The notes below the pieces were generated by a model. It ran no database searches, was not told the DNA's origin, and worked only from the letters and a program-made list of their open reading frames with translations. This document shows, piece after piece, positions 2,336-56,318 of a DNA stretch of 64,000 nucleotides; within the stretch, counting starts at the first letter, position 1; every line of letters starts with the position of its first letter. The stretch is from Isoetes taiwanensis. Lineage: Eukaryota; Streptophyta; Lycopodiopsida; Isoetales; Isoetaceae. The position numbers and the translations under genes were made by a program. The stretch spans positions 62,001 through 126,000 of the forward strand of contig JAJEKV010000202.1 of the NCBI GenBank assembly GCA_021234155.1. Reading direction: 5' to 3'.

Positions 2336-2735
2336 TGTAGGTATTGACCCGTTCAATGAGACTGAGTTATCCTTCTCTTGGATAGCCCAAGCTGCCCGAC
2401 GATCTGCATACAGTTCACCTGCAAATAATCTCACATCAATGCAATTACAAGAATACTTCTTCTGTTATTTTAGATCAGGATCCGGCCGCTATAGCGGACC
2501 GATCGATCCACCTGATATCACTAAGGCAACTTTCTTTTTCTATTCAATATGGGATAGATATATCCCATAATAACTGGGCCAAACCTTCGAAACCTTTAAC
2601 CCTTCGAAACCTTTAACCTTTAACATTACAATTTCATCCTTTAACCTTGAATATCAACTTTAGGTTAAAAGATCATGTGCAACCTCGATTTTGTCTAGGC
2701 TATCTTCATTAATCATAACATGAACAATCCCTACA
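2336..2735 (-). repeat. copia LTR, reverse orientation
   Basis: The LTR is about 400 bp. On the minus strand it starts TGTAGGGATTG and ends CAATACCTACA, giving terminal inverted repeats of 10 out of 11. It is flanked by a primer-site-like sequence (2319-2328) on one side and a polypurine tract (2736-2743) on the other. It is closely similar to the plus-strand LTR at 37588-37985. It contains an imperfect palindrome around GGGATATATCTATCCC. A polypurine tract on one side and a primer site on the other is the arrangement of a one-LTR circle or a tandem pair, not of a normal single insertion. Confidence 0.8.
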
Positions 2736-2743
2736 ATTCCCCC
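2736..2743 (-). other. polypurine tract, truncated at a breakpoint
   Basis: On the minus strand GGGGGAAT directly precedes the LTR. The intact copy at 37577-37587 reads on upstream into AACATGAA and then RNase H. Here homology to the copia unit stops at 2743, and minisatellite sequence begins with GGACTCCA at 2744. Confidence 0.75.
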
Positions 2744-5300
2744 GGACTCCAACATGCCAAGGTGGCTCAAACATGCCAAGGTGGCTCCAACATGCCACAC
2801 GGGCTCCAATATGCCAAGGTGGCTCAAGCATGCCACCTAGGCTCAAGCATGCCATCTAGGCACTCCAAATGGTGACTTGGCATGCCAAGTAAGCAAGGCC
2901 AAGTTTTGACTAGGCCAAAAATGAAAAGATGTCCATCTTTTGACATGGCTAGATGGTGGTGACATGGACATGATGACTAGGACATGACAAGGACATGACA
3001 TGGCTAGATGGTGGTGACATGGACATGATGACATGATAGCCTTTGGAATTTTTGGTAGAGGAGTTTGGCAATGGATAGAATAGAGGATCTTCTTGACACC
3101 CCTTCCCCGTCCAGAACTAGGCCGGGACTTTCGTGGCTTCCTCACAAGAGGAAAGGCCCGGACCCGGGGGATGGCTCGAGAAAGGTTGCGGGGCAGCCTT
3201 TCTGCCAGCCAATTACCGGATGGGCAAATGCCAATGCCCCCCTTCCCGGAGCTCGATTTCTCTATCCGACCGTTGAATCCACCGTTCAAGTAACCTGCTT
3301 CGAGCAAGTTCAAAAAAATTCAAGATCCGTCCGGGGAAACTTATCAAACCGTGAAGCGGCCTGCACTCGACGTGTAGAAACCCAAGTGTTTTGTCGTTCG
3401 AGCAGTACAAAGGCTCCGGAATGGAGATTCGACTTCGCCATGTCGTCCGGAATGGTGACATTACCCTAGGGATCAAGTTATACGGTCATTTTTGGCAGAA
3501 AAAAACATGAACCCTCTACGACAATATTCTGTCCATCTCTTCGCCAATTGACTAGGAGCGTATTGGACATGAGCTACTTTGGCTTCTTGGAGAAAGTGGT
3601 CTTACGCCCACGAAACTTGGTCCCAAGGGTAATCTCGATGTTTTGAGTCCATTGGCAGAGTCAGTTTACAATTTCGGAGTGGGAGAGTTGCTTGTCCATG
3701 GCCAAGGGCCTTTGGGAGAGGGCCTTTGGGGTGAACTGCTTTCGAAAGGTTTTAAGGGTCCGTCTTCTGGCGTCAACACCCTCCCTCTACTTGATGACAT
3801 TGTGCAAGATCCTGGTCGAATCTGATTAGGATATGGCCTCCGGCGTAAACCCCCTGTGTTGCTAGGTTATTGAAGGGTTTACGTTTGGGTTGAAGTTGTT
3901 TTGTCGGTTGCACTTGGGACATGGCGAGAAGCTGCAATTTGAAAACGCGAAGCAATAGGGGATTGGCGGAATGGGATTTGGATTTATCCTCCTCCCATAA
4001 TGGCAAATAGAAGCCAAGAGCGCCTTTTGCAGTAGCAAAATTGTTTGGGATCATTCGGGATGGCCAATAGATCCAAACCCCATTCCTTCAGTTCCTATTG
4101 CTTCTTGTTTTTACTGCGGCTTCTCGGCCCATGTCCTGCGTGCAACCGACTAAATCGCGACCTCCATAACGTAAACCCTTCAATAACTTAGCAAACCACG
4201 GGGTTTACGCTTTGAGGCCATATCCTAGTCGATTCACTCAGGATCTTGTACAATGTGATCAATGAGAGGGAGGGTGTTGATGCCAGAAGATGGACCCCTT
4301 AAAACCTTCCGAAAGCGCCGCCCCAAAAGGTCCTCTTCCCCAAGGCCCTTGGCCACCTGATGGGCAACTCTCCCACCCTAACTATAAACCGACTCGCCAA
4401 TGGACTCAAAACATCGACATTACCCTCGGTGACCAAGTTTCGTGGCCGGAAGATCACCCTTTCTCCAGAAGCGCCAAGGTAGCTCATGTCCAACACGTTC
4501 GTAGTCAATTGGCCTAAGAGATGGTTGCGGAATACTGCCATGTAGAGGTCCGTGTTTCTTTTGTTGCCAAAAATGACCGTGTAACTTGGTTCCTAGGGTA
4601 AATTTGCTATTCCGGATGACATAGCGGTCAAATCTCCATTTTGAGCCAACTTTGTAATCGCCGAAACCACAAAACACTTAGGTTTCTACACGGTCGACCG
4701 TAGGACGCTTCGCGGTTTGATAAGTTCTTTCAGACGGATCTTGGATTTTTTTGAATTTACTTGAAGCAGGTTACTTGAACAATGGATTCAACAGTCAGAT
4801 AGGAAAACCGAGCTCCAGGAGGGGGGGCATTGGCATTTTCCCTCCCGGAGGATCGTTGGCAGAAAAGGCTACCTCCGCAACCTTTTTGAGGTCCGTCTCC
4901 TGGGGTCTGGCATCTCCCCTCTGGTGAGGAAGCTGCGCAAAGTTCTGGCCTGGTTCGATTTGGGGAAAGGTGTCAGCGTTTAAGTTCTTCAAGATCCCTC
5001 TATTCTATCCCTTGCCAAACTCCTCTACCAAAAAATTCTAAAGGTTATCATATTTCTTGTATAAAGTCCTAGTCATCATGTCCATATCACTACCATCTAG
5101 CCATGTCAACAAAAATTTGCCAACATCACCCAATGAAAAGACCAAAGATGGACATCTTTTCATTTTTGGCTTAGTCAAAACTTGGCCTTGCTTAGTTGGC
5201 ATGCCATGTCACCGCTTGGAATGCCTAGGTTTCATATTGGTGCCTAGGTGGCATGCCTGAGCCACCTTGGCATGTTGGAGCCTAGGTGGCATGTTGGAGC
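2744..5300. mobile_element. giant imperfect palindrome, foldback-like element
   Basis: The left arm 2744-3993 is the reverse complement of about 4064-5300, with a loop of only about 70 bases near 3994-4063. Matching pairs include 3804 with 4252 (GTGCAAGATCCT), 3899 with 4150 (TCGGTTGCAC), 3640 with 4410 and 3069 with 5013. By eye the arms are about 80% identical with small indels. The outer ends of both arms are the same 39-bp minisatellite (2751-2872 left, 5235-6735 right). Long inverted arms with tandem repeats at the ends are the hallmark of foldback elements. No transposase frame is visible; open frames in the arms overlap on both strands and look incidental. Confidence 0.75.
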
Positions 5301-6735
5301 CCACATAGCATGTTTCAACCACCTTGACATGTTTGAGCCTAAGTGGCATATTTGAGCCATCTTGGCGTGTTGGAGTCCATGTGGCATGTTTGAGCCACCT
5401 TGGCATGTTGGATCCTAGGTGGCATGTTGGAGCCACCTTGGCATGTTTGAGCCACCTTGACATGTTGGAGCCTAGGTGGCATGTTTGAGTCACCTTGCCA
5501 TGTTGGAGTCTAGGTGGCATGTTGGAGCCTAGGTGGCATGTTTGAGCCACCTTGGCACGTTGGAGCCTAAGTGGCATGTTGTAGTCTAGGTGACATGTTG
5601 GAGCCCACGTGGCATATGTTGGAGCCTAGGTGGCATGTTTGAGCCACCTTGACAAGTTGGATCCCCATGGCATGTTTGATCCACCTTGGCATGTTTGGGC
5701 TTAGGTGGCATGTTGGAGCTTGCGTGGCATGTTTGAGTCACCTTGGCATGTTGGAGCCTAGGTGGCATGTTTGAGCCACCACCGGGCATGCCGGAGCCTA
5801 GGTGCCATGTTGGAGCCACCTTGGCATGTTTGAGCCTAGGTGGCATGTTGGAGCCACACATGTTTGAACCACCTTGGCATGTTTGAGCCTAGGTGAGCCT
5901 CCTTGGCATGTTGGAGCCTAGGTGGCATGTTGGAGCCACCTTGCATATTTGAGCCTAGGTGGCATGTTGAAGCCCGCGTGGCATGTTTGAGCCACCTTGG
6001 CATGTTGGAGCCTAGGTGGCATGTTGGAGCCACCTTGACATGTTGGAGCCTAGGTGGTATGTTTGAGTCACCTTGCCATGTTGGAGTCTAGGTGGCATGT
6101 TTGAGCCACCTTGGCACGTTGGAGCCTAAGTGGCATGTTGGAGTCTAGGTGGCATGTTCGAGCCCACATGGCATATGTTGCAGCCTAAGTGGCATGTTTG
6201 AGCCACCTTGGCATGTTTGTGCCTAGGTGGCATGTTGGAGCCACCTTGGCATGTTGGAGCCTAGGTGGCATGTTGGAGCCACCTTGGCATGCTTGAGCCA
6301 CCTTGGCATGTTGGAGCCTAGGTGGCATGTTTGAGCCACCTTGACAAGTTGGATCCCGCATGGCATGTTTGATCCATCTTGGCATGTTTGGGCTTAGGTG
6401 GCATGTTGGAGCTTGTGTGGCATGTTTGAGTCACCTTGGCATGTTGGAGCCTAGGTGGCATGTTTGAGCCACCGTGGCATGTCGGAGCCTAGGTGCCATG
6501 TTGGAGCCACCTTGGCATGTTTGAGCCACCTTGGCATGTCGTGAGCCTAGGTGTCATGTTTGAGCCACCTTGGCATGTTTGAGTCAGCTTGGCATGTTGG
6601 AGTCTATGTGGCATGTTTGAGCCACCTTGGCATGTTGAAGCCTAGTTGCCATGCTGGAGCCACCTTGGCATGTTTGAGCCACCTTGGCATGTTGGAGCCG
6701 AGGTAGCATGTTTGAAGTCAAATGCTAGTGAAGTG
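5235..6735. repeat. 39-bp minisatellite array 1 (about 1.5 kb)
   Basis: The array alternates two related monomers, TTGGAGCCTAGGTGGCATG (plus one T) and TTGAGCCACCTTGGCATG (plus one T), giving a composite period of about 39 bp. Monomers vary (GCCCACGTGG, GAGTCTAGG, AAGTGG). The period is a multiple of three, so several frames stay open for long stretches with PRWLKHA / CHLGSNM-type repeats. There is no start context, codon bias or conservation arguing for a protein. The same repeat in the opposite orientation is at 2751-2872, and a second cluster is at 55073-56318. Confidence 0.95.
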
Positions 6736-7880
6736 TGTCAAGCATATATAACTCTTGTATGCTACTATTTTGTGGCAGTAATGGCATGTGGACAACTTGG
6801 TCATACATGGATTCTTAGAAAACCTTAAAAAACCACACCTCAAAAAAACACTACCTTAAAAAACACCACCTTAAAAAAAACATCCCTTCAAAAAACCATA
6901 CTGCTTGAGAAAACAACACATCCTTAAAAAATAGACTACACCTCCTTAAGAAACCACCCATTCTTAAAAAAAAAAACTACATATCCTTAAGAAAAACTAC
7001 AGCATATCCTTGGAAAACCACACCCCCATATAACTACGTGTAGAATCTTCAAAAAAACAACTCATATTTTGTTTTTACTGTTGTTTTCAGCCGTGGACCA
7101 AATGTTGGGGTTGTTGTGAAAATTTCAGCCGCTGAATCTGTATACATACGTTAATGTAATGTAAAGCCATTGAATTTCAGCCATTGAATCTGTGGACATA
7201 TATGAATATAATGTAAAGCCATTGAATTATAGTTCAGAGCAGGATTTCATGAACACAAGTGTACCGCTTATCAATGAACAGCTTATTCATGAACTTTAAG
7301 AAAAATGTTTTACAAGATGAATCGCATCCTTCACCTTGATCAAGTTTCCTGCTGGGCTTTTTAAGACAAAGAAAAAATGCAGACCTTGGCATTTCTCGGG
7401 GGGTCATAAGTTCCTCGGACTCGCACAAAGTCTTGTATTACCTTTGCATGTCTACCATATATAAAAGCAGTGTTGGTGATGTCCGATCTTGTCTAAGAAA
7501 ATAAGCTCCGGACCGGGAGAAGCAAAGGTAGAATGGACCAGAGAAGCAAAGGTAGAATTTTTGTAGACTTGGTTCCATGTTTTAATCATGCGTAAATGCT
7601 AAAAGAGTGACGCAACTCGCATTAAAATACCTCTAGACTATAAGCACCACGGCCAGTCCAGTTCCTCTTGATGACCTTAGGTCTTCCAAAGAATGCTAAA
7701 AGCGTGCTCTTTTCTTTGATAAGCTCGCTCAGCCATAAGCATACCGACCAGACCTGAACTTTTTTTCTACAGGAGCGAAGCTTGACGCCCGGGTCGTGGA
7801 AAAAGAAGGCCCTTTAATAATCTCGAACCAACACCGAAGAACCCGGACCAAGGGTTTCCTCTTCAATTTTTTTTCCATAT
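6736..7880. other. no gene seen; A-rich simple sequence and a short duplication
   Basis: From 6825 to 7060 the sequence is a cryptic repeat of CCTTAAAAAACACCA-like words. At about 7105-7230 a block of about 60 bases containing TTCAGCC(G/A)(C/T)TGAATCTGT and TAATGTAAAGCCATTGAA occurs twice. I see no convincing gene from here to 7880. Confidence 0.6.
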
Positions 7881-8900: not shown

Positions 8901-8930
8901 AATGCTTGAGTGGCCTAATACAAATGAAAG

Positions 8931-14746: not shown

Positions 14747-14755
14747 TCAATACCA

Positions 14756-15412: not shown

Positions 15413-15419
15413 TTAACGT

Positions 15420-37575: not shown

Positions 37576-37576
37576 G

Positions 37577-37587
37577 AAGGGGGGAAT
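37577..37587 (+). other. polypurine tract
   Basis: AAGGGGGGAATT lies immediately before the LTR start TGTAGGG at 37588. It primes plus-strand DNA synthesis in LTR retrotransposons. This intact version identifies the two broken ends at 2743 and 55072. Confidence 0.8.
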
Positions 37588-37985: not shown

Positions 37986-38149
37986 GTGAAATTACTGTAG
38001 CAAATATAAGGTTTATGCTAAAGGTTATGTGACAAGTGAATTTTGAATCAAACCTTTAAGGATTTTGAATAACAAACATTGGGATTATTGTGTTTGATCA
38101 ATAAGCTTAGATGCTTAGGTCTTATTGTTCTATAGCATAATTATTTTCT

Positions 38150-38520
38150 TCATGGATAATAAGAGTAGCATCGTCTATATGTCCACCAGCACCAAGGTAC
38201 TTGTCCCTTAGAGTCTTAAGCTGACCAAGATACTCTCGCATGCTTGCACAGTCCTGAAGTTTGAGACTATGCATTTGCTTTTGAATATTAACCTGTTGCC
38301 TAGCTCCTTTCTAGCTCCGGACAGAATTTTGCTGTCCGGACAGAATTTTGCTGGACAGAATTCCAAAGCATGCTGAAATGTCTTAACAGTTCTGAGATCT
38401 CTCTTGAAATCAGCTGAAACTGTAGCCTTAAGAAGAGTAAGAGCTGTTAAATCTTTCTTCTTGTCTTCTGGAGTAACAGGATTCCAAGCAGGTTTCAAAA
38501 CTTCGCGCTGGAGCCATCAA
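38150..38520 (-). pseudogene. Ty1/copia gag remnant, inverted relative to its LTR
   Basis: On the minus strand the frame from 38498 gives KPAWNPVTPEDKKKDLTAL and a helical stretch ending HALEF. After an insertion of a short GTCCGGACAGAATTTTGCT-type repeat it shifts frame to QMHSLKLQDCASMREYLGQL, then KTLRDKYLGAGGHIDDATLI and IHEENNYAIEQ-stop. It is the partner of 1820-2195. The middle indels differ between copies, so they decayed independently after duplication. Confidence 0.8.
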
Positions 38521-39480
38521 AAAATCCTCAGAGACATTTTCCCCTTCATAAAATCCCCTGTTTTTGTTAGTTTTGTTTGATCCGTGGATTTTTGTTTGGA
38601 TTGTAATGTGTGAATATGTTTTTTGGCATGTATAAGGTCATTTCGGGAGCTCTGGGTGATGATTGACACGCTCAATCCGCCAAAAAAGGCCGGAACGTGG
38701 CCTGCCCTTTTTAGGGTTCTTAGATTTTTCTAGAACAATATCCCACAGGCCGAGATCATGAAAGTCCATAGGGTATATATACAGCCCTCTAAGTTTAATA
38801 AGTAAATTTACGTGCTACCTTCACGGGGATTCGCCCGTTGTCTTACATGCCCGGGGTACCACATGGGGATCAAGATTGGATGGAGAAGTGACTAGGCATT
38901 GCCCTGGGGGGGGGAAGTAGGTAGATAGGAATTTTTTTTTTTTTTTTCAAATGAACAATGAAGGTCAATATGGGTCTTTTTCAAAAAAAAAAATTCCACA
39001 AGGAATCTTTTTTGATGTTCTACAAGATGGGAGAATCATTTTGCAAGAAAGGAGCACTTGATAGAGTGAAATTTTATGATGTGGCAAGTTGGTGGGGCGA
39101 TTTGGCAAATGGTGGTGACATGGCATTATAAAGTGATGAAGTGTCAAGTAAGGTGGCAAAATGACTTTTTTCTAGTCAAAACTTTTTATGAAGTGGAGAT
39201 GATGTGGATGACATGTGTATGATGATGTGGAAGCACTTGGGGATGATGTGGCATCATGGGATGATGACATATCATCTAAGGTATCAAGATGACTTTACTT
39301 AGGTCAAAATTTTTGAAAAGATAAGTTTTGTGGTAGGTGACACGTGTATGATGACATGGATGTGCTTCAATCTTCCAAACTTCAATCTTGAGGGGTCTTC
39401 CAATCTCTAAACTCAAGTTCACTTGGTTGAATCTTATCCTCTTTGCTACACTTGTATAATGTCCTTCCCGTGGTTCTTCA
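38521..39480. repeat. composite repeat module, right inverted arm
   Basis: This is the reverse complement of 1-1820, including the TATA-like site (38773-38781), a G-run (about 38906-38915), a poly-T tract and GATGATGTGG-rich text. The same module starts again at 59765 (GCTGGAGCCATCAAAAAA). Confidence 0.85.
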
Positions 39481-41381
39481 ACAAAAGTGTCAATTTGTGA
39501 TCTTCAAAGATGGGAGTCTTCAAACTTCTAGCTCTTGCATGCATATATTAGTCAAATATTAGACAAAAATGTGCAAATTGTGCGAATTGCTCTTCTATGC
39601 TGCCAAAATATGGCAGCAATACTTGATGTCTTCTGGAGTTCTTCAATGCAAATTGTTTTCAAAATCAATGGTACATTGGCTCATGCACACATGTCAAGCA
39701 AAAAGGTTAGCTAGGAATGTGAAGTGTGCCATGGCTCTTATGTGCTACAAAAATGTGGCAGCAAGGCCCAAATCTTCCTTAAACATGCCAAGAAAAACCA
39801 TAGCCACAAAAAAAAAAAAAATTAACATGGATTGGGCAAGATTTGGACCCAAACAGGAGGGGGGCTTTGTTATAGATGAATTTCAAGGCTTTCTGAAGAT
39901 ATCAATCGCTTACTGGTAGTCTTGCCGGAACACTTTCGACGACTGCTCAAAATTACCTTCTTTGCCTCATGAATTAGCTATCTTGAAGGAGAAGCGACTA
40001 GGCATCGCTACGGGGAGGGGGGGGGGTGGGGGAGGGGGGGAGGAGGGGGTGGGGAGGAAGTTAGATAGGATTTTTTTTTTTCAAATTTGTCACAAATCCC
40101 AAGAAACGAACAATGAAGGTCAATATGGGTCTTTTTCAAAAAAAAAAAAAAAAAAATCCACAATGAATCTTTTTTGATGCTCTACAAGATGGGAGAATCA
40201 TTTTGCAAAAAAAGAGCACTTGATTTTTTTTACTAAAAAAGAGAGTGAAATTTTATGATGTGGCAAGATGGTGGGGCGATTTGGCAAATGGGTGGTGACA
40301 TGGCATTATGAAGTGGTGAAGTGTCAAGTAAGGTGGCAAAATGACTTTTTTCTAGTCAAAACTTTTTATGAAGTGGAGATGATGTGGATGACATGTGTAT
40401 GATGATGTGGAAGCACTTGGGGATGATGTGGCATCATGGGATGATGACATGTCATCTAAGGTATAACAATGTGACTTTACTTAGGTCAAAATTTTTGAAA
40501 AGATAAGTTTTGTGGTAGGTGACACGTGTATGATTGACATGGATGTGCTTAGGTGGTGATGTGGATGGTATTTGGCATTCTTGAGGATGATGTGGACAAT
40601 TTGGCAACCAATTTGGCACTGGTGCACATACCAATAGATCTTTTATGCAATGGCTTGGATAATTTACTCTTCCATACTTGTCTGAAGCAAATGCACACTT
40701 TCTCTCTCTAGCTTAGCTTTTAGAGAGAGAAGATGGTTTTAATACATGGAAATAGCCAAACGGTGGGATTTTTTTCTTTTCTCAAAGATGGTGAATGTAT
40801 GATGGGAGTGTGATGCATATATGGGCTAGGGAAAATGATGATGAGGCATGAAGATGTGAGTTATGAATCTTATATGGTGTTCATGGATGGGATTGAGTTG
40901 ATAGGATCAGGTGAGAAGCCTTGGAGAATAGAACTCATGCCAAAATGATTTGGAAGTAGCCACATACCAAAGAAACATGAGAGGTCTTCCAAACTTCAAT
41001 CTTGAGGGGTCTTCCAATCTCTAAACTCAAGTTCACTTGCTACACTTGTATGATATCCAATGAATGTCCTTCCCGTGGTTCTTCAACAAAAGTGTCAATT
41101 TGTGATCTTCAAAGATGGGAGTCTTCAAACTTCTAGCTCTTGCACACATATATTAGTCAAATATTAGACAAAAATGTGCAAAATGTGCGAATTGCTCTTC
41201 TATGCTGCCAAAATGTGGCAAAGAATACTTGATGTCTTCCGAGTTCTTCAATGCAAAATGTTTTCAAAATCAATGGTACATTGGCTCATGCACACATGTC
41301 AAGCAAAAAGGTTAGCTAGGAATGTGATGTGTGCCATGGCTCTTCTGTGCTACAAAAATGTGGCAGCAAGGCCCAAATCTT
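39481..41381. repeat. tandem duplication of the A-rich module
   Basis: The segment about 39985-41365 repeats about 38880-39775 in direct orientation, with extra sequence at 40620-41000. Both copies contain TTGATGTCTTC, the CTCATGCACACATGTCAAGC block and GGCAGCAAGGCCCAAATCTT. A G-run near 40011-40065 is expanded to about 50 bases of nearly pure purine. Short frames such as 39569-39919 and 41174-41398 are paralogous non-coding DNA. Confidence 0.8.
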
Positions 41382-43261
41382 TTTTTTTTTTTTTTTGAAG
41401 GATAAAGAATTTTCCATTTATAGGTAAACTATTACACAGCTTTATAGCAGATAGACACCCTCCTGAACAAGTTTGAAGAGGGGATAGCTACAAAGCCCTT
41501 TTGGACTGCATGTAAATGCCTTCTTCTTAAGGTGGTAGTTTGATGAAGGTCTCCCAAACAAGGGAGACATCATCTTCGACCACACACTTGAACTTTCTAA
41601 GCTTCTCTATGAGCATGTGCGATTTTGTGTGGTCAGTATATGCTTCTTTGCCTAGAGTGAAAGAATTGTGCCTTTTCCATATGACCCATAATGCCCATGA
41701 TCTGACAATATGAAAAGCTTTGCATTTTGAGACTGGCCATTCTACTGGATATCTACCTAGAAGGAGATCATTGGTCCCCAGTGTAATGTTGAACATATCC
41801 ATGCACCACGACCACACAACTTGCGTGTCGCAGCACTCGCTAAGCAAAGTTCCGTAGACTCTTCCTCCATCTTGCACAATGGACATAGAGGGCTCACGCC
41901 ACTTTGAATTTGGATACCCTTCTTGCTTACCATAGGAGCCCTATGAATTACTTGCCATAAAAAGAATTCACTTTCGGGGAGGGAGAAGTTTTATCCATAC
42001 ACCCCTCCAAATTTCCTTCACCAGTGTGTCGCTGACTTGCACATTCCATTGAGCTCTTATATGCTGATTTCACAAATGACCCCACCAAGAAGATTGATCG
42101 AGAACCCAAGGTTTCTTACTTTCGTGCTATTTATGTGGTTTGGAAGGCTTACCGCAATACATTCCCACATTGTTTTGTCGTTATTCGAGGCCTAATTTCG
42201 CTTGAATACCATCCATTCTGTTAACGACCACCTTCATACCACATTGCACATGAACCAATGCCACACCTGATCCATCTTCTCACCACTTTGATGTCGTCAC
42301 CAAAAGGGCCAAAGGACCATTCTTATTAAGGCAGTTGGATCGAATCCACCATGGTGGAGTAGTACTTCACCGCACAATTACCGATATTCAAAATGAAGAG
42401 CTTTTTCACCACGCCCCACGCTGAAATGAGACCTCTTAAGAACGGTGAGGCCTCGAACTTGGTTTCAAGCCATAAAATAGAGACCATGGAAGAGATACTT
42501 TAGGTGTGATACTTTTAGCATGTGTGCAGGAGAAACATATGGCCTCAAGGCTATATGAGTTGGAGGCCCGGTGACTTCGTTTTCTCCCTCTAAAATATTC
42601 CACATGCTTTTGGCTACTAGTATTTTGCTTTGTAGGGCTAAGTCAATCATGCCTATTCCCCCTTCTTCCTTATCTCTTTTACATTTCCACCATGCTATTT
42701 TCACTAGTGCTCCTTCCTCGTTTCCTCCCCACACAAAGTTTCTAATTGTCCCTTCCATTTCTTTTACTTTCTCCGGTGGGGCTATGAGGAGAGATGAGAC
42801 ATAGATGTGCGTCTTTGACAAAGACATGCTTCACTACTACTATCCTGCCAGCCAATGATAGTTTTTTGCGACTTTCCACCAATTCAGATGCTTCTGTAAT
42901 CCTAATATCATCTCATCCCATACTTTTGTTGAGGGTACTTTAATTCCCACTGGGATTCCAAGAAGGTTAGAATACTCCCCATCTTTTATGATTTTCCACG
43001 GGAGGCGCTCTAAACACCTGGGATGTGGTCCTTCCCCATTCATTGCTTGTAAAGCATTTCTTCCAGCTTGATGAGACATCCCGAGGCCAAGGAGAAAGTA
43101 TCTAACAACCGACCGGGCATTCTTTAGATTGCTCTCCTCTGCTACTAGAAACAAAAAGAGTCATCTCGCATATTGATTGCATATCTCGCCGCGAGATCCA
43201 TCCCCCATTTGAAGACCTTCTACTAGACCATCCCTTGAGGCCTCAGAGAAATAGTCGGAGT
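41382..43261 (-). mobile_element. 5'-truncated L1-type LINE
   Basis: The insert is about 1.88 kb. On the minus strand it encodes the C-terminal part of ORF2. From right to left: a segment with LLGIPVGIKVPSTKVWDEM and LNWWKVAKNYHWLAG (42840-43154). Next is SKTHIYVSSLLIAPPEKVKE followed by FVWGG (42465-42827). Last is a zf-RVT-like tail, GGRVYGTLLSECCDTQVVWS, with LWVIWKRHNS (41527-41886). It ends in an A-tail seen as T-run 41382-41396. A 16-bp target duplication GCAAGGCCCAAATCTT flanks it (41366-41381 and 43262-43277). Frameshifts and truncation mean it is inactive. Confidence 0.93.
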
Positions 43262-44660
43262 GCAAGGCCCAAATCTTCCTTAAACATGCCAAGATAAAAC
43301 CATAGCCACAAAAACAAAAAAAAATTAACATGGATTAGGCAAGATTTGGACCTAAAACAGAAGGGGCTTTGTTACAGATGAATTCAAGGCTTTCGGTGAA
43401 GATATCAATCTACTTACCCAGTGGTAATCGGGCCTAACACTCGACGATCGCTCAAAATTACCTTCTTTGCCTCATGAATTAGCATTCTTGAAGCAAATCT
43501 TGAAGAAATTTGTTTTGGCATTTTATCATGTGCACGAGGGCTCAAGAGCTCTGGATTTCTTGCAAGAAGTGTTGTACTATGATCCAATAAAATGAAAATT
43601 TGAACTTGGTGTATTTGCACTTAAAGTTGAAAAACCTAAGCTAAACTAGTGATTTAGGTGAAAGTCTTGTTGAAGCATGGCCTGGCTTGTAGACTCACTT
43701 TGAAGTATAAAATAGTGTGCTTCAAGATTTTAGGAAATATTGCATTAAAAAAAAAAAAAAAAAAAAAAAACCCTAAAAAGAGCAAATTATCATTGTTTTG
43801 GAAAACTTAAAAGTCTCTTGCACGAGTCAGACTTATATCATGATGCAATCCTTAAAATATTGCAAGAAGATATCCACAAAATACATATTACTATTTTTCT
43901 TAAGTTGCACTAGTTTCTTAGCAATTTTCCATCAAAAATCATGATTCCTTTGAGCATATTTGCACCTCTTTTGTTGGCAACATCTAATGCACACTAGTTG
44001 CAGAGTTGTCAGAGTTGACGGGAAGTGTCAGAAGTTAAAGAAGATCACATTTGTTTGAGTTAATAAAATTTGCTTACCGGTTAGCTTTAGGATACCGCTT
44101 GCAAAAAATAAGATTTTTGAGCCTATTTGCATGATTTTTGTGGAAACAACTGGATGTACTAGGTTTGCAGATCTCAAAGTTAATGCAAAGCGTCAAAAGT
44201 AAAAAACTCATCAATTATTTCATCTGCAAAAATTAGCATGCTGGCTGGAGCATTGATCAAGTTTTCACTTGGTTAGATTTGCAAATTTGAGAGTGTTCTG
44301 CATATATTTTCTTGCATCAAACTTTTGAGCATAGATTCTTTACATGCCAAAGCATCTTTTTTAATTGCAATTGCATTAAAATTTGATTATAAGAGCAAAT
44401 ACATTTTTCTTTGTCTTGGAAAAGCACTTCCAACTCAAAATTTGACCTTTTTTTTTGCAATCTTTTTGCTCAGAGTTGTTGTCTCAAGCAACCTGGAGGT
44501 CTTGAACCACTGAGGTTAAAGCTTTGCCAGGAATACCTTCAACATTTTCCAAGATCAAAAGTTAGCAAGACCATTTTTTCCTAGTAAAAAATGCACCATT
44601 CATTCATGGCACATGAAATTGCTAAAGTTCCATCAAAGGGCCATTTCTAAGGTCCAAAAC
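43262..44660. repeat. continuation of the downstream repeat module, copy 1
   Basis: Beginning with the second target-site copy, this continues the module interrupted by the LINE. It is closely similar to about 61745-62910, including GTGAAAGTCTTGTTGAAGCA and ATCATGATTCCTTTGAGCA. Copy 2 lacks about 250 bp corresponding to 43405-43650. A 26-base poly-A tract lies at about 43747-43772. It is non-coding. Confidence 0.8.
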
Positions 44661-46829
44661 CATCTTCTCTCTTTAGAAACAAAGATAGAGAGACAAAGTG
44701 CACCTAACATTTCTGGAAAAGGCAAAAAGTTAGACCAAAAATCTTAAAAATCAAGCGTCTTTGTGCATATACCAAAGTTCTTCGTGATACTTCCACATCA
44801 TATATACCATCACATGTCGTCGAATCGAAAAAATGTTTTTTACTAGGAAAAGAGCTATTTTCTACCTTTGTTTTGCCACATCACCACCTTCAGATTGCCA
44901 TATCACCAATTACTTGCCAAGTCACCACATTCTTTTGCCAAATCATCCATCTTTAGCCATCTTTGCCCTAAAACTAAAAAAAGTTCTCATTTTCCAATTT
45001 TTTTTTCGATAGATAGAGCATGGAAAAGCATATGGTATAGGCTTTGAAAAAGTTGAATGTGGCCATGTTTAGACCTGGAAAATTCATTTCTTGAATGTGT
45101 GCCACAATTGAAAAAAAAAAAACAAAAAAAACTCATAGGGTCAAAGTAACAATGAGCTATTGACTTTACATAACAAGTTTAGTGGTTTTGATGGAAAAAG
45201 TATCATTACTTTGGACACCGCCGTCCTCCTTGAGTGTATTTGTTAACTTCCAAACATGTGAAGTCTTCAAAAGGAGGACCATTATGGACCTGGGAAACAA
45301 GCTTTCAACATGACATTTTCCACGGCATTGAATCATTTTTATTATGTATGGAGAAGTTGTGACACAATCCCGAGCTTCTAATGCTGAAGAATCTTCCAAT
45401 TGTTGAGGATGGCATAATTAGTGTTTTAATACGGGAGATAAGAGTGGATTTGCAATTCAATACACCTTATTCGTGATCATTTATTTAGATTCCTAGCAAT
45501 TCAAAACATTGAGTTAAGTGCTCTCCTCTTTTTATCGCAATAATCAAGAGGAGTATGAAAAGAATTCTCTGATTTCATTTTAGGATTCAAGAAAGGAAGG
45601 CAATAGCAATAAACCCATCATTATGGTCTCCATTTAGTAGGGATTTTAATGGAGACACACTCCGTGTATATTTGTTCTGCAATCAGTGCAAGCTAGGGCA
45701 GAAGTATAACAGTTATTGCCTTCACAGAACCAGACTAGTAGTTCCCAAATGGGTTGAAGTATTATTAGTTTGACAGATTATGCCCTTGTTGGAAATATTT
45801 CGAAGAGAATCACTAGTTCCAATAATTTTGAAGTGTCTAAAGGAGAAGCATTATAACTATAAACTGGGAAGCAAGCTTTGACTGACACTTCCCATGGCAT
45901 TGCGCCGCTTTTTATCTTGTAAATGAAAAGTTCTAATGAACAAAGGCGAAGCTCTTGAACTGGCAAGAATCTTCTTACCGGGCTGAAAGAGAGCATAATT
46001 AGTGTTCCAAAAGGGAATTAGGAGTAGAATCTGCAATGAAACGTCCCGAATTCATGTTCCAAATGGTCATTAAATGGCTATCAAGAATGGATTTAGCTCA
46101 ATTGAAGGTGCTTTTAAGTTATTAGCAATGGATTTTGTGTTTGTCTTATATTGTCTCATGATGTAATGTATATGTCATGCTCATTTCTTTGAGAATTTGA
46201 TATTTGCATGTTGAAGTATGACATAATATTCTCGCCCCCCATAAGTTGGGAATCCTATAACATTCCTGCTTTTTGGTGAGGTCGAAGTCATTCCACATAA
46301 CATTCCTTTTTTTTGAACCATTGAATTTTAATGACAAAACCAAAGAATCACGCCACATAATAAAAACCAAAGAATCGACCACATAAAATACGACCCTCTG
46401 ATGTTGTGCCAAAAGATTTATCTCATATTTCTCGCGCCGAGGGAAAGGGCGAAAGGTTTTGTTAGGGAGCGCTTTGAGATTTGGCTGCTCTCCATCTCCA
46501 AGTTCTTCAAGCTCGCTTTGGCCGCTCTCCATCTCCAAGTTTTTCAATTGCAACTATTACTTACGCTTCTACATGCACATTTGAGGGGAACGAAGCTTTC
46601 CATTTTGCGGCACTGTGAGGGTCCATAATGACATCACTACACAAGCTTTTGTGCAATATATGACTATGGACAATATTCGCATCGAAGACAAGCCGTTCAA
46701 TCTGGGCGATGAGAGCACCCGCTCGACGACAAGGCATGTGGAGTTCATATTTGGGAAGATTTCTCACCGGGTTCTCACTGAGATTAGAACTCCAACTAAA
46801 CGTTGTGTTGCATGTCAAGTCGCCTCGCC
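44661..46829. other. no supported gene; ancient direct duplication
   Basis: The opening 44661-44990 resembles 340-900 (AGAGAGACAAAGTGCACC, CACATCA.CAT words). Around 45220-45470 and 45810-46060 two diverged direct repeats share GGGAAACAAGCTTT/GGGAAGCAAGCTTT and GGCATTG.(A/G)(T/C)C. They also share GCATAATTAGTGTT. A minus-strand frame of 135 codons at 46146-46553 and a plus-strand frame at 46615-46842 have no recognised domain. Confidence 0.4.
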
Positions 46830-47230
46830 ATGTTTTTGGTAGTTTTTTTTTTTTCGAATCACGACCTTACCGCACCATCTTCAACCGCTTACCTTGACAT
46901 CTACCCCTTTTCTCAGAAATGATGGGCATTGGTATTTTGAGGCTATGAAATGCCTAATATAAATCCTTTTTGCCTAAATGATTTCATACTTTCTTGTTAT
47001 CATGAAAATACTGTTAAAAAACAATGATGCATAAAAAACAATGATGCAGGTACAATGCTCTGTCCCTTGAATATCTCAAAAATTGTTTTTTTGTTTTGAC
47101 TGTTAAGCTTTGTTAATTGGTAGTTTTATGGTGTGGCAGCATCACATATGCACTTGTGTCTATGCCCTCTGCTGTTAAAAACATGTAGTTGCAAGATACA
47201 GATTTGGAGGTCATGGTTTTCTTATCATTA
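46830..47230 (+). repeat. leader of the composite copia unit, copy 2 (left of the Helitrons)
   Basis: This matches 35740-36387 with deletions (single copy of the 66-bp repeat, and a gap before GTTAAGCTTTGTTAATTGG). It stops exactly at 47230 (TTATCATTA), where the Helitron pair begins, and resumes at 53887 (TATCCAACGTAGTC). Confidence 0.85.
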
Positions 47231-50200
47231 CTAGTAACGGTGCCCAGCGTTGCTGAGCCTATCAATGTTTTGGCCGCAATGACTTTCTAAAGGTTTAAAC
47301 GAAATATAACTCTTTCATGTTAGATAGTGTTAATTATGGCAGGGAGACACAATCTAAATAACATTCAATATAAAATACCATTGTGAAGTGAAGAAGAGAT
47401 ACATGAATATGGATGTGTATGCAATAAATGTTGAAAGGGTGTAGTTGCAATAAACAACTTTGAGTTGGCATGTGCAAAAGCTTCTTAGCTAACTTTCTTA
47501 AGCTTCCTATATATCTCAAGGCATCAAGCTAATGTCAATAGGAGTGAAATCTCCATGTTTTGCATAAAGAAAATGTGTATACCTGTTTAATTGGAATTAA
47601 ATGAATATTGTGAGTGCAATTATACTTGGTGGGCATTGGCAACCCAACATCTCAGCTAGATATCATGGGAGTTTTGCATGTATACATGACAACATGCTCT
47701 TTGGTAGGATCAATTGACTCTATTGAGTATCATTGCTCTGGCAAGGCATCACAACATGGTTGTCATGAATCATAGTAACCTGCAAGACAACACTGAAATA
47801 TCACTATCTTTTGTTGCATATATGGCAGGTTGGTATTAGAATTAAAAGAAAATTATTTGGCTCATTTGGTTATAGTGGAGTACTATCTCACATGTTAGAA
47901 ACATGACCATGAAATGTAACTTCAAAGAAAGAAGAAGAAAAGAAGAAGAAGAAAGCTTAGTGTTAGAAGAAGGAAAGCTTAGTGTTTTTAGCATTTGTGA
48001 AGTTTTTTGTGCTCCGATAAGAAAAGAATATTCACAAATGAACCCAAGAATTAAAAAAAAAAAGGAATCTTTCTTACATGAAATTGGCAGAACCTTATTT
48101 TGTTGGAAAATAAACACACAAAGGTAAACTGCTAGAATATGTTAGGTTATTCCATGGCTTACAGAATCAGTGATCACAATCAATTCTTCAAGTATCACTG
48201 CAACAGAAACCCTTGCTATCAGTCACTTGTGATCTTAATCTCAAAGCTTCATGCACTGGTCTGGGCAGCGATGGCGTTTTTAGTTTTGGCTTCGCCCAGA
48301 AGGAAAGCTCCCTGCTTTTTGGAAGAGATCCGTCCGGGCCATAGCTTTAAACTACCATATGTTCATATGCAAGACAATTATGTGAAGACAACAATGTATT
48401 GTGTTGTTCAAGCAGAGCTACTATTAAGCAGCTCATATTTAAATTCACTTGTCTAGACTTCTTCTTTCCACAAAATGTGGATATCAGCACCTAAGCAACT
48501 GCACTTTTCCTAGTGCTCCGATAATATCAAAAAACTTTAAAACCATGCCAAGGCTACAATTGCTGCTAAAATGAAACACAATGAATTCCATCTATACAGA
48601 CCTTCTCACATCTACCTTAGAAAATACAGAAGCAATCTGCCTGAAAATATTGAAGCCTGAAGATTCAATGTTCTGGAAAAGAAGCCAATAAATTACGGTG
48701 TGCTTCAAGATCTACTATCGTAAAGAAAGGGCTAGCATATTTGTAGTGGGCTTCCTCGAAAACCATGTCATCCAATGTGCAGAGCTCTTTTGCTTGTTGT
48801 ACATTGCTATAAAGGAAACAAAAAAAGGATTCTATCAATGCTGCAAAATATTTGTAGTGGGCTTCCTCGGAAACCATGTCATCCAATGTGCAGAGCTACT
48901 TTTGCTTGTTGTACCTTGCTATAAAGGAAACAAAAAAGGGATTCTATCAATGCTGCAAAGTTGCTTACCTTACTTTCGAACTCAACATTTTCCTTCTTCC
49001 ACATCTGAACATAAGGAACATGACATTGAATGCTAATTCCCAGAAGATGCGTCGGCTGAAGAATAAATGCCATATCATAATCAAGACTGGCAACTTCTTA
49101 CTGGAGTTCAAACAGAATCAAATGGTGAAACAGACCCCATAATCATGCATGTACAACCCCATAATCATGGCTGTACAACAGAATAGTATCAAGATCAGAT
49201 TGTGAAGCAAAATTAACAAACATAATTAAAGTCTTCACATAGTTAAAAGAGGAGTACTGATGCAAAAGAAGACCAAAGAAGACCAAGAGTAATAACCAAT
49301 GCTGTGACAAATATAAAAACAAAGGCCGAGCAAGGGATGTTCTTATATGAAAACATTTTTAAAATTGTTAGGCATCATAAATGAACATCGATTCAACTTT
49401 TAGATACATAATAGGGATGCTGAAAGTATGCTTGCATTATTGACAATCAGGGCGAAAATTGAGGTGCTTGCAATTTTTTGCAACTTTCAACAGCATAAAG
49501 AAATCTCAAATCAAGAACCAATAAGCGGCAACACAACTTCAGATAAATGTAGACATCATTGGTCTAAGAGAATATGTACTGGTTGCCATCCCCATTGCAA
49601 GAGATAGAGCTCCAACAACTGCAATTCTTGAAAAACTTTGGATTAGAGTGTTGGCATCTGACACATCCAATAAAAAAAAACACCTGCAAAGGATAAACAT
49701 GCATTGTAAGAACTCCTTACCTCAGCATCATTGGCAAAACGTCTTCGTAGCATTTTATCACAAAATCAATCAAGAATCATTTTCAGAGAGCTTCGTAAGG
49801 ACTATGTACCTTGAATATTCTTGTAGTATCCTGCCCAGCTCCACCCCAATTGATGGGGGAGCATTAGCAGAAAGAAGACCTGCTTGATCAAAATAAGATA
49901 AAAAACGTTAGAAGAATATGAAGAGTGTGTGCAGAAAAGAATCAGTTGTGTGCAAGAAGAATAGACTGCACGCATGCAAAAAAAGACACCTTGAAAATGT
50001 AGCACTGGGTTGGCTTGTACAACCTCCTTCATTATGGTCTTATATAATAACTCCAAGGTCGGTTATTTAAATTCTAGCTTCATGATTCGACTTTGCATGA
50101 GGAATAACACACCAAGAGCTTGAATCTCTCACTGAGTCTCTAGTTTCTGGTATTGGCCTACCAATCATCCTTCATCAATCCTAAACTCATATGTTCGCCT

Positions 50201-50707
50201 TCATAACCTCTCTTTTCAAATACAGAAACCCCAGACCATTTATGCATCAGGAACCCCCAGAAGCGTTCGAGAAGAACTGTGACAACCGTGAGCATGGCCT
50301 TACTCTAACCCATGTCATTTGAAAGATTAGAGCCCTAAATGCCAGAAAATTTACACCCTCATGCATTGAGTCTGCCGCCATGGACATCTGCTTCAAGCTC
50401 AAAGCTGGGATCCGAGCCACTCTACCATTCATCAGATAACTGCTTTGATGAAGAATTTGAACGCTTTTATTTCAAATATATGCTCTTGCAGGAGCAGTCA
50501 AACGAACATGCCATTGCTGCTGCCTGGAAGCGGATGGTGATGCCGAGCTTTGCCTCCATGCCTGTTGCAGACCTTCCCGCTTCGCCATAGCTGAGGAAGC
50601 CCTAAATCGCTAGAACGAAAATAAAAGTACTATCTCGACCGTCCAATTTTCTACTCAAATCTTGACCGTCAGATCTAGGGCGTGGTACATTACACAACAT
50701 TATAATA
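47231..50707 (-). mobile_element. Helitron A, non-autonomous, gene-carrying
   Basis: On the minus strand the 3' end is CTAG (47234-47231), preceded by a hairpin with one mismatch (47258-47242). The 5' end abuts Helitron B's CTAG and reads TATTATAATGTTGTG, then a subterminal CCACGCCCTAGATCTGACGG. That subterminal block is shared with Helitron B, but the canonical second base C of TC is A here. It carries minus-strand exon-like cargo, including a possible gene start at 50588 (MAKREGLQQAWRQSS) and a doubled exon (48737-48960). No Rep/helicase is seen. Confidence 0.8.
48737..48960 (-). repeat. tandemly duplicated 111-bp exon-containing unit in Helitron A
   Basis: Two copies with period 111 (ATATTTGTAGTGGGCTTCCTC at 48737 and 48848). 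On the minus strand each has a pyrimidine-rich tract ending CCTTTATAG and then an open segment (NVQQAKELCTLDDMVFEEAH, YKY). The upstream neighbour at about 48975-49035 reads VPYVQMWKKENVEFESK and ends in AAG-GTAAGC, a good donor. This suggests a captured gene in which one exon and part of its intron were doubled. The protein family was not recognised. Confidence 0.55.
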
Positions 50708-53700
50708 CTAGTAATGGTGCCCAGCGTTGCTGGGCTTAAATTGAGAGTCTCTGAATCGCCTTCGTCTCGCCTCTCTCATTGGCGGAGTAAGCTTGTACTC
50801 AGGACCTTCTGCATTGCTATGTTGTGTGTAATAATTTTTATACGTACCTTAAGGTCATTGCTATGTATAATAATTTTAATTTCTCTAAACCCAACGTGAC
50901 TTAGACATCTTTGCGAGGCAATTCAACATCTAGACAGTAAGCTTGGCAAACTCTTATGCAAATACCATGTGCAAAAGAATTGTATTATAAAAGAAGCTTT
51001 GTGATCATGCATTATGTTGTGGAGCTCTATTTGCATCCAAGATTTTGCATTAATTCAGACATGTTTTTTCAAGCGTCATCAACTTTTCAAGTAAAAGTGG
51101 ATATCTTTCAATTGGAAGTGGATGCCTTTCAAGAGTGGTCTTTGTTCTAAGGCTGATCTTTAAGTATATGCAATTCAAATATTGCAAAAAATCATTAGCA
51201 AGTCCTAATCATTGCCAAATCGTTCATAAATTGAAATATGTTCATAGATTGAAATGTATTGGCTGCAATATGTGGAGAAACTTCATATCAACGGCATGTG
51301 CCACAATCTAGAAATGTAACAAAGTCTGAATTAATAATCGAGAACAAATGCTAGATATCTATGCCAAATCTAAAGCATCTAACATTGCCCTCTCAAATAT
51401 TAATCATGCTAATCTTCTTCGAAAACCATGGGAATTTAAATAATAAACCAAAATGACTCTGTTGTTGCATTTACCTAGAGTTAGACACATAACATGTCAT
51501 ATTTGGCGACAAATCATAGTGAGTGAATGAGGATGTAGTCTGTCCAAGAAAGAGAAAGGAGGGAACTTTTATAATTGCTATAGTTCATGATTTTGTTGGA
51601 CATGAGGCGAGCTCAAGAAGATGCTGGAATGTGGTGACTAAAAAGTATAAATGGTTTCCCTTTATTACTATAGAAGGTCAAATAATATTCTAGAGATGTG
51701 ATCGTGATGCCAGTGATGCCAGGACTGCCTGCATGTTTAAAATACAGAACTGGAGTTGATGAGCTGCATGTATTAGTTGCTTCTCTTTTAGCAGCTTCTA
51801 TAGCCTTTTGTTGAGCAACACGGAGTTGAAACTGTGCCTTTCCCAACTGCCATGGACTATGAAAAGTCTATTTTTTTCATAAAGCATATTCAATTAGCTT
51901 TCTCAACATATTCTGTACTCTCTCTATGAGCAAAAAGTGGTCAGATGTGGCTGTTATTGTAGACACATGACAAATATGCTGTTGTTGTAGACATGTGACA
52001 AATAAAAACACTTTATTACCAAATGAACCTCCAAATGAAGAAGTCTATGCTGGATGTGATGTACATCCTATAAAGAAAGTAGTAGCTAATATCAGTTTTG
52101 GAGCTTGAACCTCATAAAATGCATCCATGTTTCAAACATGCAATATAATCGTACCTTGATCATATAAATAAATAGATATTTACCTTCACATTTTAGATAA
52201 TCCCCTGGATGGAACTCCATGACCTCAAAACCCCTGGCTGGAAGTCCATGACCTAAAACACGTGACAGAAAATTGACAAATAAGAATCCAATATGACAGG
52301 AAATAGCATATCAGTTTTATGGGACAATGGCAGCGAAGACAAATATCCGAAGTCTAACATGAACACAGCTTCAATTGTATGCTGCTAAAAATTATGTGGT
52401 ATGGTGTTGTGAAGCTAAATAACCTAAGAAAACTCATGTGGTGTTCATGCATTTTTCATTCATGAAGCAATTTATATGCTTGCTCAATGTCCTGCTTGAT
52501 AAAACCATCAATTAACACAGTTCTATATAATAAAAGAATATGCAAAGCTTCTATGAACTCCAGAAATTTATCTTCTGCATATGATTACAACCATTTTCAC
52601 TGGCTTCTATGAACTCTAGAATTTTGTCTTCTGCATATGATTATAACCATTTTCACTGGCCTGACTTGGGAACCTTATCAAATGCTTGTGTGTCTAATGC
52701 ATTGCAAGTTAGGGCTTAAAAATATTGCAATACAATGCTGTTGCATGATTCAATAAATGCCGATGGCCATGAAATCCCATCTGAAACTTAACAGGAGGAA
52801 AAGGATTCCAGACTCAAGCTATGAAGGAGAAAGGAGAGCCATTCTTACATGCCGCCCATCATCTCAATCCCTTGCCATTCATCTCTTTAGTCATCCTGGT
52901 CATGCCCTGCCGTTCTTCTGCAACAGAGCTGTTCATGGAAAATCTGAAAGCTGCTTACGACCGAGACCGAATCAAAGGCAAAGGGTAGCAAAATTGAACC
53001 ATACCTCTATAGTCGGTAGTCTGCTCCGAGGGCATCATCATCTTCTTGCTTTCGCTGCAAGGGCGTAAGAAGTCTGTCGAACCTTCAAAAATCTTTAAAA
53101 AGGACACTCATCAAATCATGACCATAGACCCAGTTTGGGATGTTATCTACATTCAGGATATAAATAAAGCAAAAACCTTGATTTACCTCCAAAGAACTTT
53201 GAACTTCATCCCTAAGCAAGGAATATTAATAAACATTCTGAAAATCCAAAGTGGAAGTCAAAGAAACGATCCATGGCATGGCATACACAAGGGGATTCAA
53301 AATACAATGTGCCTGAAAGACTTGTAGGGGGTTTTTTCGACCCATTTCCATACGTTATGGCAAAGGTAGGGGGTTTTTTGCCACTACTTGGGGTAAACTT
53401 TGTCATGGAAGGGGTGGGATCACCCTATGCACGCACATGGCATACCCCTCACACTATAAGTGAAGAAAGTCAAGATCAAAAAGAAAGGAACCAAAGAAAG
53501 ATGTCCCGATGCTCTACCCGCGATTTGATTTTGAAGCCCAGTGCTTTGCAAAGGGCCAATGTTCCGATTTTGAGAAACGAATCTGCTGGGATCACTTTTG
53601 ACTACTAACGAAGGAGTTTGAATTTCGAGTTGGCATCGAAAAATATTTCTGTGGTTGCCCTAGGAGTTTGAATTTCGAGTTGGCATCGAAAAACATTCCC

Positions 53701-53886
53701 TGTGCTACCCTTTTTGTTCATGCTTTTGGCTATGGCGGGATCGCCGAAATTGCTTTCGAACCCTAATACGTCGAAAACCCTCCCCTTTGTTTTTTTGGCA
53801 TAATCTGGATCATTGAGTTGACTTAATCTGAGCCGTTTAATCTAGGGCGTGGTTCAAGACACACGCCAAAACATTATTATATAGGA
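50708..53886 (-). mobile_element. Helitron B, non-autonomous
   Basis: On the minus strand it starts TCCTATATAATAATG (53886 leftwards), followed by a subterminal CCACGCCCTAGATTAAACGG. It ends CTAG (50711-50708), eight bases after a perfect hairpin GCCCAGC-AAC-GCTGGGC (50735-50719). The base before TC is A. Helitron A follows directly on its 3' side, so the two form a head-to-tail pair. Interior frames are short; the minus strand near 51613-51846 and the plus strand near 52757-53600 have no recognised domain. Confidence 0.85.
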
Positions 53887-55072
53887 TATCCAACGTAGTC
53901 TTGTAATGCATAACTACACTTTAGAATGCAATCAACGCAGCAAAGTTGTTTACTATCTTTAACAGCCGCAGTAACTATCCTTATTTCTGTGTACACAAGT
54001 CTGATTTCAGACTTTAAGGATTTGTTAAGTTACAAAATGATGGCAATCTCTATAAGTATCAGACTGGTGAGAAATGGTGCATAATTGCACTGTATGTAGA
54101 TGACAATATAATGATCTTAAAAGGAATTAAAGTTTTGGAGCATTGCATGAATGTTTTAAACATTAAATATAGGATGTCATATTTAGGTGAGCTGAGGAAA
54201 TTCTTAGGAGTTGAAGTTCACAGGGATAGAGCCAATAAGATATTGACACTTACTCAGAAGAGCTAGATAGAAGGGATGCTTGACAAATTCAAAATGAGAG
54301 ACTGCAACATTGCTAAAACTCCTATAATACCAGGGTGTAAGATTTACTCGCTAAGATGAGCCCAAGAACCGAAAGAGAACGAGAAGAGATGAAAAAGGTA
54401 CCTTTACGCGTGTCTCGATAGGATGTCTTTCTTATGTGGCAAATTGCACTAGTCCGGATATAGCTTATCTTTGTAAAACATGTTAAGCGTGTATAATAAT
54501 GACCCGTGAAGGGATCACTTGATAGCGACAAAAGAGGACATTAAGATATCTTAAGGGGACAATGAATGATGGAATTAGTTACAATACGAGAGAACTTACA
54601 ATTTGCGTGGGCATTTTGTGATGCAGTTTGGGGAGGGGACCTTGATACAAGGAAGTCTACCTCGGGGTATTTAATCTTCTTAGGAGGAGCACCAATTGCA
54701 TGGAATGCAAAAAATGAATGCTATTGCTATGTCTAGTGCCGAGGCGTAATATGCTTCACCGCATTAGCTACCAAAGAGTTGATATGGGAAAGAAGGCTCA
54801 TGTTTGAATTAGGTTATGATCAATTTAAGGCTACTGAAATTACATTGTGATAGTACCAGGTGCATAGCTATGACTAAAGACCCGGTTCTTCCGCGAAGGA
54901 CTAAGCATATTGAGTTAGAACCGCACTTTATCGAGATGTTGTGAAGAAAAAAATGCGATCAAGATGGTATATGTGAACACCTCAAGTCGGTTAGCGGACA
55001 TTAGACTAAAGCTCTATCGTAAGGAAAATTTACGTGAGTCAAGAATAAAAATTCAATTACGTCATAACATGA
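53887..55072 (+). pseudogene. Ty1/copia reverse transcriptase C-terminus and RNase H, copy 2
   Basis: This is nearly identical to 36386-37575, with its own stops and shifts. It keeps the YVDD region near 54095-54115, MSYLGELRKFLGVEVHRD and AFCDAVWGGDLDTRKSTSG. It also keeps YLIFLGGAPIAWNA, which is better preserved than in copy 1. It ends at 55072 in CATAACATGA, two bases short of where the polypurine tract starts in copy 1. Minisatellite begins at 55073. The missing tract and LTR correspond to the sequence ending at 2743 on the opposite strand. Confidence 0.9.
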
Positions 55073-56318
55073 TGGAGTCCACGTGGCATGTTTGAGCCAC
55101 ATTGGCATGTTGGAGCCCACGTGGCATGTTTGAGCCACCTTGACATGTTTGAGCCACCTTGTCATGTTGGAGCCTAGGTGGCATGTTTGAGCCCCGTTGG
55201 CATGTTGGGCGACCTTGGCTCCAACATGCCAAGGTTTGCTCAAACATGCCACCTAGGCTCCAACATGCCACTAAGCTCAAACATGCCACGTGGCTCCAAC
55301 ATGCCACCTAGGCTCCAACATGCCATTGCGGACGATTAACTATCAGTGCGAGCGTGTGATTTGGAATCCCAACCGAAAAGCCCACGATGATTTCGACGAA
55401 ACCAAATCACACGCTCCGGACCGATAGTTAATAGTCACGCCCACGAGGCTCAACATGCCACCTTGGCTCCAACATGCCAAGATTGGCTCAAACATGCCAC
55501 CTAGTCTCCAACATGCCACCTAGGCTCAAACATACCAAGGTGGCTCAAACATGCCACGTGGGCTCCAACATGCCACCTAGGCTCAAACATGCCAAAGTGG
55601 CTCAAACATGCTATGTGGGCTCCAACATGCCACCTAGGCTCAAACATCCCAAGGTGGCTCAAACATGCCACATGTGCTCCAACATGCCACCTAGGCTCCA
55701 ACATGCCAAGGTGGCATGTTGGAGCCCATGTGGCATTGCTGAGCCACCTTGGCATGTTGGAGCCTAGGTGTATGTTTGTGCCACCTGGCATGTTGGAGCC
55801 TAGGTGGCATGTTTGGGCACGCTAGCATGTTGGAGCCCACGCGGCATGTTTGAGCCACCCCCTGGCACGCTGGAGCCTGGGTGACATGAGTCACCTAGGC
55901 ATGTTGGAGCCTAGGTGGCATTTTGAGCCACCTTGGCATGTTGGAGCCTAGATGGCGTGTTTTAGCCTAGGTGGCATGTTTGAGCCTAGGTGGCTTGTTG
56001 GAGCCTAGGTGACATGTTTGAGCCTAGGTGGCATGTTTGAGCCGCCACGTTGGAGCCTAGGTTGCACGTTGGAGCCTAGGTGGCATGTTTGAGCCACCTT
56101 GGCATGCTGGAGGCTAGGTGGCGTGTTTGAGCCATATTGGCATGTTGGAGCCCACGTGGCATGGTTGAGCCACCTTGGCATGTTGCAGCCTAGGTGGCAT
56201 ATTTGAGCCTAGATGGCATGTTTGAGCCTAGATGGCATGTTTGAGCCTAGGTGGCATTTTTTAGCCACTTTGGCATGTTGTGGAGCCTAGGTGCCATGTC
56301 ACCCAAATTTTGCCAATG
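55073..56318. repeat. 39-bp minisatellite cluster 2 with orientation switches
   Basis: The monomers are those of 5235-6735. Orientation is GGCATGTTTGAGCC at 55073-55205, flips to GGCTCAAACATGCC at about 55213-55706 and flips back from about 55712 to 56318. The flips at about 55210 and 55708 make short palindromes of repeat units. Long frames on both strands (55474-55767, 55501-55791) are products of the codon-multiple period. Confidence 0.95.
55326..55443. repeat. hairpin-forming insert inside the minisatellite
   Basis: Arms 55334-55364 and 55402-55436 are imperfect reverse complements (GATTAACTATC...GCGTGTGATTTGG) around a loop of about 37 bases. This non-minisatellite sequence sits within the reverse-oriented part of the array. 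It could be a small MITE-like insertion or the core of a foldback element. Confidence 0.7.

Follow-up and report, generated by a model that had tools for sequence, protein, structure and literature searches.

Features of the locus

We analyzed a 64,000-bp stretch of the Isoetes taiwanensis genome (C1022:62001-126000, hereafter the window, on a contig of 182,099 bp) in which two mobile elements, a copia-bearing unit designated U1 and a CACTA-like transposon designated Z, are each split into two pieces at the ends of an inverted segment of 52,329 bp (2744-55072). The half of U1 with the long terminal repeat (LTR) occupies positions 1-2743 on the minus strand, and its likeness to other copies extends to the left of the window as far as about C1022:58133. 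The half with the reverse transcriptase (RT) lies on the plus strand and has two parts: an upstream part at 42785-47230 that is collinear with a copy on contig C1067 (42785 being the start of that match), and a degenerate copia RT at 53887-55072. Z is represented by a left piece on the minus strand (2744-7118) and a right piece on the plus strand (55073-59518), which correspond to the two halves of an unbroken copy on contig C34. The Z termini, each with one side of a TTT target duplication, are located at 7118/7119 and 59518/59519. At the first breakpoint (2743/2744), the inverted polypurine tract (PPT) and LTR of U1 are joined to the minisatellite of Z, and at the second (55072/55073) the RT half of U1 is joined to this minisatellite, in both cases without microhomology at the join. 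The evidence for the inversion comes from the assembled sequence and from paralogous copies within this one genome.

Sequences at the two junctions

As described in an earlier note on the window, the RT copy stops at 55072 and the inverted PPT/LTR at 2743, each directly abutting minisatellite, and TGGAGTCC is present at both broken ends (55073-55080 and, on the minus strand, 2744-2751). The 39-bp minisatellite that the note had placed at both ends is indeed a minisatellite at both, but its period is 19 bp rather than 39 bp, with higher orders of 38 and 57 bp. When the joins were read against the C34 copy of Z and the copia copies, no shared bases were found at either of them; CATG is present one base off the 55072 join on both partners.

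We searched the genome assembly (1,658,258,908 bases in 1,110 contigs) with both junctions. The query 2600-2800 gave 121 matches, with 40 of 800 candidate places scored. Among the scored places, 21 LTR-side copies (counted from the listing) stop at or before query position 144, which equals 2743, and 99 matches are on the array side, the best of which (C34:194796-194852, 57 of 57 bases) starts from query position 145. With the exception of the window itself, every match extends at most 9 bases over the join. The query 55000-55085 gave 14 matches with all 14 candidates scored, and all 13 matches outside the window stop at or before query position 76, beside the break. Within the places scored, no second genomic occurrence was found for either junction, nor did we find other copies ending exactly at these positions beside minisatellites, which is what the earlier note had named as evidence against an inversion. 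Because copies stop at the breaks and none of those scored runs through either junction, the observation is not a matter of chance.

Transposon Z

The minisatellites at 2744 and at 55073 belong to the two halves of a single 8.8-kb transposon. The unbroken copy at C34:190458-199323 corresponds to the window from 7118 back to 2744 followed by 55073-59518, with identities of 95.6-99.6% over successive stretches. Compared with C34, the left piece differs at 118 of its 4,363 aligned bases, 108 of which fall in the core-side half of the alignment, and the right piece at 45 of 4,438. On C34, Z sits within an (AATAG)n array and its ends read CACAACAACCCC... and ...GGGGTCAGTGTG; its 3-bp target duplication is ATA, found on both flanks, while that in C1022 is TTT and is now split across the inversion. 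A palindrome of 2.6 kb (2747-5337), with arms 76% alike, has the minisatellite at 2744 as its outer arm. A search with the 7118 terminus (40 of 1,223 candidates scored) showed that all 40 scored matches stop within the last 7 bases of the query, and 7118 is therefore a true element end. By our own reading, 12 of these 40 lie within a few kb of a match to the palindromic core.

CACTA elements have CACTA/CACTG inverted termini, and a transposase would be missing from a non-autonomous element. The termini of Z are CACAAC.. and CACACT.., the first bases differing among the copies compared, and none of the eight submitted Z frames of at least 90 codons matched Pfam at E≤0.01 (minisatellite frames were not submitted). 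Compared with the CACTA transposons covered in the accessible part of PMC8978399, Z likewise has a 3-bp target duplication and short inverted CACA-type termini, but no transposase domain was found in it, its core is palindromic and armed with minisatellites, and its termini are CACAA/CACAC. In Z, a foldback-like palindromic core that has minisatellites as its arms is combined with target duplications of 3 bp. The family looks abundant, with 6,638 core candidates (40 of which were scored) and 1,223 terminus candidates, the palindromic core alone having thousands of candidate sites in the genome.

The presence of a DNA transposon at one of the breaks would suit alternative (reversed-ends) transposition, which is known in maize according to the accessible part of PMC8225341. 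However, the Z termini are at 7118 and 59518, with both breakpoints internal to Z, and the breakpoints have no flanking target duplication, so that we regard this mechanism as extremely unlikely.

Some further observations concern Z and its surroundings. At 55326-55445 the Z minisatellite contains a short insertion that appears hairpin-like by eye. When read by eye, the stretch beside the C34 copy (C34:187036-190458, L032) looks in places like fragments of an ABC transporter, an aminotransferase and an oxygenase, such as a gene-capturing element would carry. C34 was also considered as an allele of the window and rejected: 19 of 20 C34 probes had no match of at least 60 bp to C1022:52001-136000, the remaining probe matched over 74 bp at 81%, and an 8-kb C34 stretch gave a single match of 143 bp.

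Uninverted order in paralogous copies

The earlier note had proposed that inverting 2744-55072 would rejoin both the element and the minisatellite. This is borne out by the unbroken Z on C34 and by paralogous uninverted copies, which, as the note had anticipated for synteny, join 55072 to 2743. Alignment at the polypurine tract showed that six other genomic copies of the copia unit (L002, L004-L008) and the in-window copy, U2, are all continuous across the copia break; U2, at 36-39 kb, had been correctly described as unbroken at the PPT. Relative to five of the six other copies, which share one string, the joined window halves are 1 base short. The loss of about 2 bases claimed previously holds when the in-window copy, with its additional G, is the reference, but not for these five, nor for L002, which has one G fewer and is no longer than the joined halves.

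Three adjacent pieces at C1067:7896683-7908756 form an unbroken unit across the breakpoint over more than 12 kb, in the order 42785-46837, 46838-47230, 53886-55075, 2743 back to 1259, 1250 to 725, and 727 to C1022:59191; the last piece holds about 1 kb extra. Contig C1041 was compared by means of two loci (L074, L004) and 20 probes. Over about 53 kb it follows the uninverted order (59519 / 7119 ... 46855, 47230 / 53886 ... 55075 / 2743 ... to -2370). Thirteen of the 20 probes match, all in the uninverted order, 11 with their best hit and two with their second. For one of the latter (L079) the best hit, at 77.6%, is elsewhere and the collinear hit has 93.7%; for the other (L091) the best hit is at -2695 (96.0%) and the collinear one at 44069 (92.6%), these two sites being mutual repeats. 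Moreover, the outer flanks of Z at 7119 and 59519 adjoin at an empty site in all seven paralogs fetched of the eight found, three exactly by BLAST and four with short diverged stretches, the target string having been read directly in all seven. Of five other contigs carrying both U and the 59519 region within 60 kb, four (C952, C1041, C1048 and C994) have them in the uninverted orientation. Contig C271 was rejected as an uninverted allele: the stretch fetched has the Helitron-like insertion of 47231-53886 in common with the window and no flank.

Both junctions might alternatively be assembly errors or chimeric molecules, as a short, repeat-rich contig with a long palindrome beside one join might lead one to suspect. 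The junctions are reciprocal relative to the uninverted order (C34, C1067, C1041, empty sites). Yet the joined sequences do not overlap at the joins, and the assembly would have to contain two errors, reciprocal to one another and at positions that complement each other. We therefore consider this unlikely.

Several points weigh against the inversion as read here. On C1041, seven of the 20 probes have no match (five beyond the ends of the matching stretch and two inside it), and two of the 13 matching probes fit by their second hit only. On the fifth contig, C1067, U and 59519 have the same orientation, and the probes on C1067, of which six of 20 match, are indicative of a distinct rearrangement at 12.9 to 16.0 kb of the window. 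An excised circle, which was raised by this orientation, is ruled out by the empty sites and C1041. Furthermore, the contig C1022 is short, Z is absent from this site in all seven paralogs fetched, and other copies of the RT region of U1 are 6-10% different from the window half. Taken with the evidence above, the inversion as a historical event is well supported, and it is apparently young.

C1067:7868001-7957400 looks to carry a second, independent inversion, with one breakpoint between the equivalents of window positions 12,900 and 16,045 (L005, L006, L065, L067-L070, L072, L107, L108, L111, L114, L119, L124).

The broken array and the sizes of loss

The earlier note had interpreted TGGAGTCC at the two ends as an 8-bp inverted duplicate. 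According to this explanation, the breaks were staggered and the overhangs were filled in before joining. Apart from its position at both broken ends, the rarity of the exact TGGAGTCC in the arrays speaks for it (three occurrences versus 51 of TGGAGCC in the C34 stretch). The C34 array, however, reads TTGGAGTCC-ACATGGCATGT-TGGAGTCC-ACGTGG, with TGGAGTCC in two adjacent 19-bp units; the left piece of the window stops after the first of these and the right piece starts with the second. We checked this string in 19 core loci, the window's own being left out, and found the two units in seven (L010, which is the C34 locus, L011, L013, L014, L017, L025 and L026). In the six other than C34, one unit differs by one base, and in the remaining 12 the two-unit string is missing, the array being different or cut off; the string thus occurs in six of the 18 loci other than C34 and not in 12. 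No duplication is needed because each broken end kept one of two adjacent native units, for which the pair on C34, together with the six near-identical ones, suffices. The staggered-break duplication is accordingly quite improbable in our view. A loss of about 11 bp from Z relative to C34, without such a duplication, would be the most economical account of the two sequences; against it stands that the size of this loss assumes that the window Z had the two units of C34. The copia unit lost 1 bp relative to five of its six other copies.

The sizes also bear on the alternative proposed in the earlier note, in which one array had inserted into the copia unit beforehand and ectopic recombination between two opposed minisatellite arrays then inverted the segment. 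Opposed arrays are present at both segment ends, and this is the mechanism documented for Galileo in the portion of PMC2775673 available. Small indels aside, however, the two window pieces together make up a single Z that lacks 11 bp in this array; therefore no second array was involved, there being no surplus array. In addition, the seven other copies of the copia unit that were read have no array at this site. We hold ectopic recombination to be very unlikely.

Other features of the window

U2 (36258-41381, plus strand), which had served as the reference of the earlier note, contains part of a copia-type RT (RVT_2, E 1.8e-17, only the last 95 of 244 profile positions). Only this partial RT was found in U2, an LTR-to-LTR gag-pol not having been sought beyond Pfam on its frames, and a gag-like frame on the other strand had no Pfam match. 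Helitrons are marked by a 5' TC, a 3' hairpin with CTRR, insertion between A and T, and no target duplication. The 6,656-bp insertion inside U1 (47231-53886, minus strand), which is missing from the six other copies compared, fits these hallmarks by its ends and the uninterrupted copies, the hairpin being judged by eye.

RT and PPT copies often occur as same-strand pairs about 11-15 kb apart (C1067, C1041, C952, C963, C1048, C994, C1037, C1022), the window pair being 17.5 kb apart with the Helitron-like insertion included. This looks like a dispersed tandem pair; the pair on C1045 is on opposite strands. In 36385-38400 and 53886-55072, the differences between copies look, on inspection by eye, like short scrambles concentrated at CG and CNG sites, a pattern that uncorrected methylation-related sequencing errors might leave. 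The region from C1022:58133 to at least window position 64000 is one copy of a large repeat that is dispersed in the genome. About 53 kb of this repeat was followed on C1041, and its part at 59519-60000 occurs on eight other contigs. Its two sides are inversely similar (59757-62914 versus 1834 to -3312), and its exact ends were sought and not found.

Discussion

Two breaks followed by end joining without homology, after the insertion of Z, are very probably the explanation of the inversion and the best mechanism for it. Z would have inserted between 7119 and 59519, making the 3-bp TTT target duplication. One break would then have occurred within the Z array and one within U1, upon which 2744-55072 would have flipped and the ends would have been joined without homology, with the loss of about 11 bp and 1 bp.

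Double-break inversions repaired by non-homologous end joining are listed as a mechanism in the accessible part of PMC8225341. As far as that part goes, the inversion in the window resembles them in its reciprocal junctions, the lack of homology at the joins and the small losses, and there is no essential difference except that in the window each of the two broken targets is a mobile element of which unbroken copies exist, so that the breaks can be placed almost to the base. With the Galileo inversions of Drosophila buzzatii, as presented in the available portion of PMC2775673, it has in common that an element of foldback type sits at the breakpoints and that the inversion has parted the target duplications; it differs in that one element copy was broken internally, with no chimeric pair and no homologous exchange. 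That the palindromic, minisatellite-armed core of Z is a fragile site which repeatedly seeds inversions, the one in the window being one of many, is a doubtful proposition.

The inversion in the window is an ordinary kind of rearrangement that is unusually well documented. Since intact copies of all the broken parts exist in this genome, the prior order, the sequence of events and the two joins can be reconstructed with nearly single-base precision. End joining can thereby be told apart from recombination at a breakpoint rich in repeats, the kind of place where one would usually assume that repeats had recombined.
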